Shown here in pieces: positions 8,226-38,891 of a stretch of DNA of 48,445 nt. Below the pieces are notes generated by a model that worked only from the letters and a program-made list of their open reading frames with translations, searched no databases and was not told the origin of the DNA. Both the position numbers and the translations under genes were made by a program. Positions within the stretch are counted from its first letter, which is position 1; every line of letters starts with the position of its first letter. The DNA is from Mycobacterium sp. UM_WGJ (GTDB taxonomy: Bacteria > Actinomycetota > Actinomycetes > Mycobacteriales > Mycobacteriaceae), in contig NZ_AUWR01000005.1 in NCBI RefSeq assembly GCF_000455125.1, positions 1 through 48,445 of the forward strand, written 5' to 3'.

Positions 8226-9851
<1,626 letters not shown>

Positions 9852-35875: not shown

Positions 35876-37321
35876 CTAGCCATTCTGCTGGTCCTTCTCG
35901 CGTGCCAGCGGCACGCTGAGCCGGAATGCCGCACCGGTTTGCCGCGGCAGACACTCGAGGTTGCCGTGATGCGCCTGCGCCAGTGCCCTGGCGATCGGCA
36001 GGCCCAGACCGGCGCCCCCGGAGTCGCGGTTACGGGCGTCGTCGAGGCGGACCAGCCGGTCGAACACCCGCTCGCGGTCGGAGTCCGGGACCCCCGGACC
36101 GGTATCGGTGACCGTTACTTCGGCGTTGGGTTCGCGACGGCTGGTGTGCACGGTGATCTCGCCGCCCTGCGGGGTGTGCCGACAGGCGTTGTCCAGCAGG
36201 TTGGTCAGGATCTGCGCGATGCGTTGCGGGTCGGCGTGCACCGGCAATGTCTGACCGTCCCCGGTAAGGCGCACAGTCAGGTTGGGGGCCAACATCGCGG
36301 CACGGTCGACTTCGGCGGCCGCGATCTCGACCAAGTCGACGTCCTCACAGCGCAGTGCCGCCCCGGCGTCGATGCGCGCGATATCGAGAAGGTCGGCGAC
36401 CAGCCGAGCGGCGCGGCGGGTTTCGCCCGCGAGTAATGTCGCGAATCGACCTCTGCGAGCGGCATTTCCGGTGTTGGCGGCGAGTTGCTGTGCCAGGGCC
36501 TGGATCCCGGCGATCGGAGTGCGCAGCTCGTGTGCGGCGTCGGAGAGGAAACGGCGGGTATTGGCCTCGGCTCGCTGCGCGGAATCTGCGGCTTGGCGTG
36601 CTTCGCGTTCGGCGGTCTCCAGGGCGTCGAGCATGCTGTCGAACGCGGCAGCGGCCTGCCCGAGCTCGGTGTGCGGCCGATCCGGGCGGAGTCGACGGCC
36701 CCGGTCGCCGTGGGCGATCAGCTGCGCAGTCGTGGTCATTCGCTGCAAGGGGGCAAGTGCCCGAGCGGCGGCGAGGCCGACGAGCAACGCGACCAACCCG
36801 AGCCCGATCGCGCCGCCGACGAGCAGGTCGTACCGCAGTTCCGAATGGCGGGCGCTGATCGCCGAGGTGTCGGCCACCAGGGTCAGTGTTGAACCGTCCG
36901 GCAGCAGGCGGGTCACTGTGGTGCTGGTCCACTCGCCGGGAGGTGGTGGTGGCGGCGGTGGTGGCGGTCCGCCGGGCGGGTGCGGGTGCCGGTGGTGGCG
37001 CGGTGGTGGCGGCGGCGGTGGTGGTGGTGGTGGGGCGGGCCTAAGGGCCAGGTCGCCGTAGGCGGTGCCATCCGGAGCGACTATTTGTACCCGGATATCT
37101 TGGCCCTGCAATTGGGTGACGAGGGCGGCTGGACTCACCCCGGCGTCGACCAGATTGGCGGCACGGACGGCGGTGTTGTCGAGCCTGGCCCGTAGGTCCC
37201 GGTTGAGTTGTGCGCCGACCAGCTGGTCGCCGGCCACACCCAGCACGACCAACAGTGCTGCGATCACGCCAACCGTGCCCACGGTCGCTCGCCGGCGCAG
37301 CGATGGTGTGGGTGTGCTCAT
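35876..37321 (-). CDS. Two-component sensor histidine kinase with His/Pro-rich extracytoplasmic loop
   Basis: The product is 481 residues. A first membrane segment (about 10-35) and a second (about 165-190) bracket an outside loop. Within it residues about 94-128 are nearly pure proline with a central histidine cluster (RHHRHPHPPGG), a possible metal site. HAMP follows (about 190-240), then the HisKA domain with phospho-acceptor His264 in SDAAHELRTP, and the ATPase with NLLDNACRHTP (N box), DTGPGVPD (G1) and GGAGLGLPIARALAQAHHG (G2). The ATG overlaps the regulator's TGA by four bases. It is probably a kinase for that regulator. A low-complexity outside loop of this length is unusual. Confidence 0.9.
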   Translation of the reverse strand: MSTPTPSLRRRATVGTVGVIAALLVVLGVAGDQLVGAQLNRDLRARLDNTAVRAANLVDAGVSPAALVTQLQGQDIRVQIVAPDGTAYGDLALRPAPPPPPPPPPPPRHHRHPHPPGGPPPPPPPPPPGEWTSTTVTRLLPDGSTLTLVADTSAISARHSELRYDLLVGGAIGLGLVALLVGLAAARALAPLQRMTTTAQLIAHGDRGRRLRPDRPHTELGQAAAAFDSMLDALETAEREARQAADSAQRAEANTRRFLSDAAHELRTPIAGIQALAQQLAANTGNAARRGRFATLLAGETRRAARLVADLLDIARIDAGAALRCEDVDLVEIAAAEVDRAAMLAPNLTVRLTGDGQTLPVHADPQRIAQILTNLLDNACRHTPQGGEITVHTSRREPNAEVTVTDTGPGVPDSDRERVFDRLVRLDDARNRDSGGAGLGLPIARALAQAHHGNLECLPRQTGAAFRLSVPLAREKDQQNG

Positions 37322-38001
37322 GGGCGGGCTGCCGCCAGTCGGTAGCCGACACCGCGGACGGTGTGCAGCATCCGCGGTCCGTGGGCCTCCAGCTTGCGGC
37401 GCAGTCCGCTGACATAAACCTCGACGAGGTTGGCGTCGTAGGCGTCGTAGCCCCAGACCGCCGTCAGGATCCGATCCTTGCTCATTGTCCGGCCGCGCTG
37501 CTCGGCGAGGTAGCCGAGCAGCTTGAGTTCGGTGCCCGTCAGCTCAATCACGGCACCCGCACGGCTCACCACCCCGGCCTCCATGTCGACCACCAAGTCG
37601 CCGATCTGTATCGCAGACGCCACCCGACCGCGCCGTCGCAGCACCGCTGCGATACGGGAGACCAGCTCTGCCAATTCGAACGGCTTGACCACATAGTCGT
37701 CGGCGCCGGTGTCCAGCCCGCGCAGGCGATCCTCGAGCGCGTCTTTGGCGGTGAGCAAGATGATTCCGGTGTCGCCGTAGCCGCGCACCACATCGATCAG
37801 AGCGAACCCGTCCCGGCCTGGCAGCATCACGTCGAGCACCACCAAGTCCGGGCGGAACGCGGGCAATACGTCCTCCAGGCCGCGGCCGTCGGCTCGTCCA
37901 CCGCTGACGAATCCGGCGTCGGCGAGCGCCGCCACCACGGTCTCGCGGATCGCGTCGGAGTCCTCAATCACCAGCACCCGGGGTGCGCTGTTGTTGTGCA
38001 C
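37318..38001 (-). CDS. OmpR-family response regulator
   Basis: The product is 227 residues. The receiver domain starts VLVIEDSDAIRE, has phospho-acceptor Asp57 in LVVLDVMLPG, the Thr in ILLTAKDA and Lys in YVVKPFE. The C-terminal winged helix reads LTGTELKLLGYLAEQRGRTMSKDRIL, in segments, then VYVSGLRRKLEAHG and VRGVGYRL. GTG 38001 is the likely start because an upstream in-frame ATG at 38061 would make the coding region overlap the repeat-rich control region; no good Shine-Dalgarno is seen for either. It is divergent from a proline-rich membrane gene and coupled to the kinase gene. It resembles TcrA/PrrA-type regulators, but I would not name an orthologue. Confidence 0.9.
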   Translation of the reverse strand: MHNNSAPRVLVIEDSDAIRETVVAALADAGFVSGGRADGRGLEDVLPAFRPDLVVLDVMLPGRDGFALIDVVRGYGDTGIILLTAKDALEDRLRGLDTGADDYVVKPFELAELVSRIAAVLRRRGRVASAIQIGDLVVDMEAGVVSRAGAVIELTGTELKLLGYLAEQRGRTMSKDRILTAVWGYDAYDANLVEVYVSGLRRKLEAHGPRMLHTVRGVGYRLAAARP

Positions 38002-38024
38002 CTTGCCATTGTGACCGCTCGGTC

Positions 38025-38081
38025 GCTGAAGCAGAGCTGAGCAAACGGGGTCCTGGCCCATGTTTTCAGCTGGGCTTCAGC
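38025..38081. promoter_or_regulatory. Mirror-image direct repeats between the regulator and the proline-rich genes
   Basis: GCTGAA-N5-GCTGAG at 38025-38041 and TTCAGC-N5-TTCAGC at 38065-38081 each have repeat units spaced 11 bases, the spacing of OmpR-family binding sites. The two pairs are inverted relative to each other and separated by 23 bases, so each can serve one side of this divergent region. Downstream of the second pair, TACAAA (38108-38113) could be the -10 of the proline-rich gene. Confidence 0.65.
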
Positions 38082-38152
38082 ATTGCGCCGCAACGTTGGT
38101 GGCGCAGTACAAACCTTGGCATTGCAGTGGTGCGCGACTCACGGAGGACACC

Positions 38153-38662
38153 ATGACTGAATCGGAACACATCGAAGCGCCGGAACACATCGAAGTGCCC
38201 AGTGCTACCGCGACACCTAACCAGACGCCCACTCTCGGCAAGCCGGGGCGGCGGGTGACCAATCGCCCATGGTTCGCCCCGGCCGTCGCCGGTCTCGGCG
38301 GCCTGATCGTCGGTGGCCTTGTCGTCGCGGGCTCTGCGGGGCTGCTGGGCGTGGGCGGTCCTGGCCGATTGGCCTCTGCCCCAATCCCGCTCGCTGCCCC
38401 AGCCCCGCTTTGGCCGGCGCCGCCACCTCCGCCGTTGCCGCCGGGGCCGCCGCCGCCTCCGCAGGCGTGGGGACCGCCGCCTCCGGCGTGGGGACCACCG
38501 CCTCCGGCGTGGGGAGCGCCGACACACCCCGGGCGAGGAGTGCCGCAGCCCCCGGAGGGGGGAGCGCCGCAACCTCCCGGGCCAGGAGCGCCGCCGTCTC
38601 CGGGGTGGGGCCCACCACCACCTCCTGGCGGGCCCGTGGCACCGCCGGGACCGCCGCGCTGA
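38153..38662 (+). CDS. Proline-rich single-pass membrane protein
   Basis: The product is 169 residues. It starts with an acidic segment (MTESEHIEAPEHIEVPS), then a basic PGRRVTNRPW, then one hydrophobic helix (about 43-70, AVAGLGGLIVGGLVVAG), and then an extracytoplasmic tail of about 90 residues made of proline, glycine, alanine and tryptophan with PPPPAWG-type repeats. The DNA for these is a 21-base tandem repeat at 38464-38510. ATG 38153 is six bases past CGGAGGA, a good ribosome-binding site. The low-complexity tail is open in other frames too, so a frameshift in the family cannot be excluded. It is divergent from the response regulator, and its control region has the repeats. Function unknown. 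Confidence 0.65.
   Translation: MTESEHIEAPEHIEVPSATATPNQTPTLGKPGRRVTNRPWFAPAVAGLGGLIVGGLVVAGSAGLLGVGGPGRLASAPIPLAAPAPLWPAPPPPPLPPGPPPPPQAWGPPPPAWGPPPPAWGAPTHPGRGVPQPPEGGAPQPPGPGAPPSPGWGPPPPPGGPVAPPGPPR
38464..38510. repeat. 21-base tandem repeat encoding AWGPPPP
   Basis: Units beginning GCGTGGGGACC start at 38464, 38485 and 38506; the first two are complete and differ at one base, and the third diverges after about ten bases. Each unit is seven codons and keeps the frame. Confidence 0.8.
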
Positions 38663-38666
38663 CCTG

Positions 38667-38891
38667 GTGATGGTGATGGTGCTGTTGCTCGCGGCGGTGG
38701 CCGCCCTGGCCTACTGGCTGGGTGCCCACCGCCGCGCAGACCACGACGACGCGGCCGGCTTGCGGCCGTGGTTACTGGCCGGCGGGGCGGTCTTGGGTGT
38801 CATCGTGCTGGTCAGCCTGCTTTCGGGTGGCCCGGGGCCGATCGGCGGGCCCGGGCCGTTGTGGGGGCCGGGCCCGATCTTCGGGCCGTAA
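38667..38891 (+). CDS. Small two-helix membrane protein with Gly-Pro tail
   Basis: The product is 74 residues from GTG 38667, with alternative in-frame ATG starts at 38670 and 38676. Two hydrophobic helices (about 3-18 and 34-52) flank a charged loop (HRRADHDDAAG), and the end is a Gly-Pro-rich tail (GGPGPLWGPGPIFGP). It begins four bases after the preceding stop, so it may be translated by coupling. The frame is also open upstream as an Arg-rich low-complexity stretch that looks like a shadow of the proline-rich gene. Existence is likely but not certain. Confidence 0.55.
   Translation: MMVMVLLLAAVAALAYWLGAHRRADHDDAAGLRPWLLAGGAVLGVIVLVSLLSGGPGPIGGPGPLWGPGPIFGP

Follow-up and report, generated by a model that had tools for sequence, protein, structure and literature searches.

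Organisation of the locus

The window analysed here is a 48,445-nucleotide stretch of contig NZ_AUWR01000005.1 from Mycobacterium sp. UM_WGJ (assembly GCF_000455125.1), and its positions 35,876–38,891 hold a two-component system next to a pair of membrane protein genes. An OmpR-type sensor kinase and its response regulator lie on the minus strand; a protein with one transmembrane (TM) segment, referred to below as the partner, and a small two-TM protein are encoded divergently on the plus strand, all as open frames. Proline-rich sequence marks both an outside loop of the kinase and the tail of the partner. This layout, and the co-occurrence of its components, is well supported in actinobacteria. 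The features of the locus are as follows.

35876..37321, minus strand: sensor histidine kinase, 481 residues (open reading frame; Pfam HAMP, HisKA and HATPase_c)
36938..37042, minus strand: codons of the double polyproline loop (residues 94–128) around a histidine cluster (translation; AlphaFold secondary structure)
37318..38001, minus strand: OmpR-type response regulator (Pfam Response_reg and Trans_reg_C; GTG start at 38001 preferred)
38025..38041, minus strand: candidate regulator-type site facing the regulator gene, CTCAGCTCTGCTTCAGC (17 bp, one mismatch)
38065..38081, plus strand: candidate regulator-type site facing the partner gene, TTCAGCTGGGCTTCAGC (17 bp, exact form)
38153..38662, plus strand: divergent partner, one-TM protein of 169 residues (open reading frame, translation, TM and tail test)
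38363..38659, plus strand: codons of the proline-rich tail of the partner, predicted to lie outside (translation, TM and tail test, charge; tandem repeats)
38670..38891, plus strand: small two-TM protein, 73 residues, with a Gly-Pro tail (translation)

Kinase and regulator are of the OmpR/PhoB type by Pfam matches above cut-off (HAMP, HisKA and HATPase_c; receiver and Trans_reg_C). The regulator most likely starts at the GTG at 38001 and not at the upstream ATG at 38061, from which the frame would overrun the first site (38025–38041). Its mRNA is possibly leaderless from this GTG; by eye, an ACAAT-like element lies directly upstream of the regulator start in several relatives.

The sensor loop and the partner tail

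The kinase is built from TM1, a small α/β outside domain bearing the polyproline loop, TM2, HAMP, HisKA (with His264) and HATPase. The loop reads RPAPPPPPPPPPPPRHHRHPHPPGGPPPPPPPPPPGEW, and the first-pass annotation of this DNA had rightly described it as a double polyproline run around a histidine cluster: within residues 94–128 two proline runs flank RHHRHPHPP, and the 49-residue stretch counted contains 25 prolines and 4 histidines. An AlphaFold (AF2) model of kinase residues 1–266, made from an alignment of the window sequence with 49 relatives (50 sequences; mean predicted local distance difference test score 87.5), predicts a long TM1 helix, a short helix, two strands, an unstructured loop, two more strands and the TM2 helix. 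As the loop has no predicted secondary structure and sits between strands 87–89 and 133–139, it is modelled as projecting outward from the small membrane-proximal domain. A fold search with the sensor model gave a single match at E<0.001, the WalK-YycH integrative model, and named no small outside sensor domain convincingly.

The divergent membrane protein with a polyproline outside tail is likewise as first described, with one TM segment and a tail that is 47% proline. It is predicted to adopt an N-in/C-out topology, which positive charge favours in 81 of the 83 partners identified in related loci, the other two being ties. Of the partners, five proteins were compared with Pfam and four with NCBIfam, and no family model matched. 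The second small protein, whose gene begins 7 bp past the partner stop codon and which closes in Gly-Pro repeats, is present as annotated, but its membership in the conserved core is putative: no convincing homologue was found in the loci compared, with repeat-type similarity only among the matches listed.

Recurrence of the layout in relatives

A kinase search at 1e-80 found the gene in 51 of 148 genus genomes, and 80 loci were taken from at least 175 confirmed in a scan of one genome per species. The locus set held 133 loci with the kinase, 119 of them with the regulator in place; after removal of 18 in which the regulator or upstream DNA was wanting (L200 and L203 included) and of four duplicates, 111 distinct loci were retained. 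The partner was scored blind as a divergent open reading frame starting near the regulator, with one TM cluster near the N-terminus and a tail of at least 30 residues and at least 18% proline. Such a frame was found at 83 of the 111 distinct related loci and at 0 of 39 unrelated OmpR-type regulators from seven genus genomes. These controls came from 46 loci (all 16 of the window genome and 30 from six others), less four without alignment, one too short, and the window locus and its paralogue.

Among the 28 loci that failed, four (L058, L071, L076 and L104) encode a TM protein whose Pro- or Gly-rich tail falls below the threshold, unknown bases interrupt L102, L204 carries a frame resembling a partner, and L034 retains the N-terminal half of a partner, its tail being absent. 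The layout was found in the Mycobacterium group of the Mycobacteriaceae and in Antrihabitans, Actinomycetospora, Microbacterium, Curtobacterium, Aeromicrobium, Nocardioides and Microlunatus. A plasmid origin was rejected, as a DNA search gave partial matches only (167 records, none over 80% of the query); the plasmid collection contained no kinase match at 1e-40.

The draft contigs of L036/L114, L144, L145, L201, L209, L210 and L211 end inside or beside the kinase loop. With contigs so often breaking there, assemblies frequently truncate the gene, and its occurrence may be underestimated. At the Amorphoplanes locus L059 (2640–3215, minus strand), the product of the divergent gene looks exported, has a Pro-rich end and possibly a folded middle, and has no Pfam match.

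Joint variation of loop and partner

Loop and partner change together, over few independent events. In 49 loci of Mycobacteriaceae/Antrihabitans, the 29 partnered loops contain 20–41 prolines and the 20 unpartnered loops 5–11 (Mann–Whitney p 3e-9, kinship ignored), and a run of at least six prolines occurs in 23/29 versus 0/20. L034 and L204 were scored among the unpartnered despite their partner remnants and partner-like frame, respectively; the loop is abnormal in both. Within the 29 partnered loci, loop and tail correlate in proline (rho 0.49) and aromatic (rho 0.64) content.

On a kinase tree built from the kinase part alone, with the loop excluded, the window and L034 group beside L035, L037, L038 and L115. 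In these four loci the divergent slot holds PE and/or PPE genes (Pfam PE/PPE for those scanned) and the loop is shorter, and this pairing in the closest relatives underlies the conclusion that loop and partner change together. The first-pass annotation had suggested looking for the layout in other mycobacteria; the partner does recur there, but its absence, which that annotation would have counted against one unit, is found in the closest relatives other than L034. As these sister loci also lack the long loop, they support the loop–partner link. In the neighbouring clade L039–L043, the slot of L040, L041 and L043 encodes a small exported-looking protein (77–80 residues) under the same kind of site; that of L041 had no Pfam match. 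Nested inside the partnered kinases is a clade of nine loci (L146–L153 and L207), named C71-type, with a 30-residue loop, no partner (0/9) and no site (0/9); in at least seven of the nine, PPE occupies the slot. It includes the window genome's own paralogue at C71 (L002/L149), a kinase 51% identical to that of the window, with a short loop, PPE in the slot and no TTCAG site. Over the whole tree the partner label changes 11 times, compared with 25 for shuffled labels, and some of these changes are threshold misses.

In L034 (Mycolicibacter icosiumassiliensis), the nearest relative, kinase loop and partner tail are both collapsed, and the space left ahead of the next gene is too small for the second small gene. 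Either joint loss or assembly collapse may account for this.

Candidate regulator sites in the control region

Between the divergent genes are two candidate sites, facing opposite ways, with the pattern TTCAGC-N5-TTCAGC (11-bp spacing). Repeats had been noted in the control region at first pass; the 18-bp tandem repeat (38163–38199) proved to lie inside the partner coding sequence, and the two 17-bp sites are what the control region retains. The exact form occurs once in the 4.47-Mb assembly (38065–38081), and with up to one mismatch there are 22 matches versus 13 for a reversed control pattern. In the window by itself the count does not reach significance (4 matches with two or fewer mismatches versus 2.17 expected; 20 of 100 shuffles as high), and the sequence evidence from this one genome is moderate.

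The sites derive their significance from recurrence in relatives, where up to two mismatches gave 134 matches in 117 loci (four duplicates included, L138 left out) versus 1.7 expected: 59 in 52 Mycobacteriaceae/Antrihabitans loci (1.1 expected), 24 in 12 Actinomycetospora loci (0.1 expected) and 51 in 53 others (0.5 expected). The pattern was found in none of the 39 control regulators. It is absent from 24 of the 117 loci, namely the nine C71-type loci, nine others of Mycobacteriaceae/Antrihabitans (eight of them partnered) and six of the remaining group. When the core TTCAG-N6-TTCAG was scored with one mismatch, 33 of the 48 loci listed with both sites had the pair facing apart at an offset of 38–40 bp. 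By eye, a TAnnnT-like element follows the partner-side site by about 10 bases in many loci printed, and an ACAAT-like element lies near the start codon behind the regulator-side site, a placement that would be expected of a regulator activating both promoters. The recurrence of the candidate sites supports a putative shared regulation of both genes.

Comparison with known systems

All four features of the unit are found in the window: a loop-bearing kinase, a regulator, a divergent one-TM Pro-rich protein and paired TTCAG sites. The best curated matches are to MtrAB (NCBIfam NF040691/NF040689), at 183.4 bits for the kinase and 187.2 bits for the regulator. These scores are far under the equivalog cut-offs (450 and 300 bits); the kinase match spans residues 162–476 and leaves the outside domain uncovered. 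The score of the kinase to the heavy-metal sensor kinase model TIGR01386 is also below the cut-off (176.5 versus 292.55 bits). MgrB–PhoQ exemplifies a small membrane protein that is a target of the regulator and feeds back on the kinase; it is not known to have a polyproline module or a divergent layout.

The tcrY gene adjoins lpqH, and ten lpqH-type loci were compared. The kinases found alongside lpqH in four of these (L155, L156, L157 and L159) are 34–37% identical to the window kinase, to which the own-genome paralogue (51%) is closer. The single lpqH-family match of the window genome is on contig 8, and the window kinase is on contig 5. On this comparison through the lpqH neighbour, the window system was rejected as a TcrXY orthologue. 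Short one-TM Gly/Pro-rich proteins, by position possibly Rv3705A-like, are encoded beside the ergothioneine ligase EgtA in L167 and L170, the latter with a His-rich stretch, and L168 has a 68-residue frame of doubtful meaning there. Rv3706c/Rv3705A-like proteins were rejected as the partner after about 1.5 kb on each side of EgtA had been compared in ten genomes, those seen differing in build.

In M. tuberculosis, TcrXY is autoregulated, and TcrX directly controls the small proline-rich proteins Rv3706c and Rv3705A at acidic pH (PMC10883919, in the parts available). It resembles the unit proposed below for the window, as a mycobacterial, autoregulated two-component system that targets small proline-rich proteins. 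In the same parts of that paper, however, the proline-rich targets are not described as neighbours, the binding site is a mirror repeat and a polyproline loop is unmentioned (PMC10883919). Another parallel is mycobacterial TapA–MtrB, in which a separate protein interacts with and activates an envelope sensor kinase (PMC12338722, in the parts available). The loop–tail contact considered below would likewise place a kinase under accessory-protein control, but those parts do not describe TapA as proline-matched or as a divergent target (PMC12338722). The unit as a whole was not found described in the open-licence literature searched, including the available passages of PMC11043171 and PMC6629963.

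Proposed mechanism and alternative explanations

It is proposed that the regulator would bind both direct-repeat sites of the intergenic region, each lying upstream of one promoter, and that the bound regulator would drive the partner gene as well as its own operon. In the membrane, the partner would keep its N-terminus on the inner side and expose its polyproline tail on the outer side, in the same compartment as the kinase loop. Tail and loop would then act together, either by mutual contact or by both engaging one cell-wall layer, and partner amount or spacing would feed back on the kinase. Regulator binding, activation at both promoters, loop–tail contact, the sign of the feedback and the signal are all steps that we infer here. 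An autoregulated envelope two-component unit with such a loop–tail feedback or gauge has roughly an even chance of being correct, and a functional pairing of loop and tail is plausible at about even probability. The earlier proposal of one envelope-sensing unit is thus strengthened by the recurring layout and the control-region site. Its suggestion of metal sensing is not supported as a general reading: 27 of the 29 loops of partnered Mycobacteriaceae/Antrihabitans contain at most two histidines.

The main rival holds that the partner is output only: a wall or surface protein that is under regulation and carries a proline spacer, with the loop as an independent spacer facing the same wall, and neither contact nor feedback between them. 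This is a real possibility, if not a probable one. Exported proteins of other kinds (PE/PPE or a small secreted protein) can occupy the slot behind a site of this type, so that the constant of the unit would be a regulated exported product. Moreover, loop and tail share few 5-mers (4.9% with their own counterpart versus 3.9% with others, p 0.05, 28 Mycobacteriaceae loci). A pure output role nevertheless does not in itself account for why a long proline-rich loop occurs solely where the product is present (29/29 versus 0/20).

Several further results weigh against the proposed feedback unit. By our own reading of the tree, there are only about two or three independent co-changes in Mycobacteriaceae, so the exact separation and the kinship-uncorrected p-values overstate the evidence. 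Loop and tail are uncorrelated in glycine and in Gly/Pro ratio in Mycobacteriaceae/Antrihabitans, and 8 of the 28 scored partnered loci of this group lack a site at up to two mismatches. The partner is present in 12/12 Actinomycetospora loci; outside these two groups the contrast is weak (42 partnered loops with 7–13 prolines versus 8 others with 2–10, p 0.017), and several of those eight unpartnered loci hold a partner-like protein below the threshold. Loops outside Mycobacteriaceae/Antrihabitans are shorter and Gly/Pro-mixed. A partner homology search matched 4 of 148 genus genomes, the window itself included. Compared with the other 147, the N-terminal half gave three weak matches (E 1e-4 to 1e-3), none of which lies beside this kinase family in the 3.2 kb fetched around each; one (L244) adjoins a receiver-type match of 33% identity. 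A laxer comparison revealed weak TM-region similarity to the partners of L119, L122 and L128. Partner sequences are hardly alignable, and their common descent is putative.

Neutral slippage of CCG-type repeats in G+C-rich DNA, with adjacency a coincidence, might also produce such tracts, which are low-complexity and length-variable and in or beside which several draft contigs end; across the tract of L204 the two kinase halves lie in different frames, as derived from coordinates. It is nevertheless very unlikely, given the 0/39 control regulators, the recurrence over several actinobacterial families and loop proline that is independent of local G+C (rho 0.05, p 0.75, 49 loci). Sensing of acid or redox state as in TcrXY, with the histidine cluster reading pH and the partner as effector, would find a precedent in the acid-dependent control of proline-rich proteins by TcrX, and the window shares an H-x-H-P motif with five distinct loci of its sister clade. 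Against it stand a kinase that is not TcrY, a direct repeat in place of the mirror repeat described for the tcrXY promoter, and the scarcity of histidine in most family loops, and on balance this explanation is unlikely. A metal sensor, in which the His/Pro loop binds metal and the partner buffers it, can draw on the four loop histidines and on sub-threshold scores of kinase and regulator to heavy-metal subfamilies; with TIGR01386 below its cut-off, a histidine cluster unconserved in the family and eight scanned flanking proteins of which none belongs to a metal transport family, it is extremely unlikely. A local role of the loop histidines, in acid or metal sensing, is possible. By analogy with TcrXY and from the H-x-H-P motif, acid would be a reasonable first guess at the signal of the feedback unit.

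If the feedback unit is real, a signalling unit widespread in actinobacteria has escaped notice, since low-complexity proteins slip past family models, and its outside module would be recognisable by composition, not by sequence. It would also offer a simple test of how a kinase can read its own product or wall thickness, with the candidate regulator site as a starting point; the loci with and without loop and partner form natural comparison pairs.

Rearranged loci

Relative to the kinase domain, L200 has an inverted segment that carries the N-terminal part of the kinase, the regulator and the start of the partner, whose TM segment and tail continue in frame into the kinase (505-residue frame). 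Compared with L138, L203 (4347–7054) has the kinase segment inverted at its own position; a partner-like N-terminus continues in frame into it (433-residue frame), and the original N-terminal part of the kinase leads into a separate end rich in proline. The breaks in both fall in proline tracts. Both assemblies are drafts (140 and 130 contigs, respectively), the L200 sequence begins at the edge of a contig and several contigs stop within the tract, for which reasons assembly error is quite possible; the arrangement may be either inversion or error.

Long exact repeats were rejected as the driver of inversion, as the longest exact word common to loop and tail codons is 8–16 nt (28 loci). Imperfect words in the window are longer (19 nt at 95%, 37 nt at 73%). 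By the standards of ordinary homologous recombination, and equally of a simple k-mer assembly mistake, such lengths seem short. The exact words shared across the L203 breaks are short (12 nt), which fits both inversion and assembly error poorly. It is conceivable, and quite unlikely, that loop and tail form one interchangeable polyproline module common to a sensor and its own target, in which DNA inversion between the tracts, oppositely oriented through the gene layout, would swap outside halves and create hybrid kinases such as those in the L200 and L203 assemblies, making a recombination-switchable sensor.

In L204 (genome G045, one contig), a frame change within the proline tract separates the kinase N-terminal part from the kinase domain; it may stem from sequencing error, decay or slippage.

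Genomic surroundings

On one side the unit is flanked by a DUF222 protein; its neighbours on the other side are a trehalose-phosphatase and a universal stress protein. Elsewhere in the window, positions 8232–9851 hold a GroEL-type chaperonin frame with a His-rich tail, which we take to resemble GroEL1.

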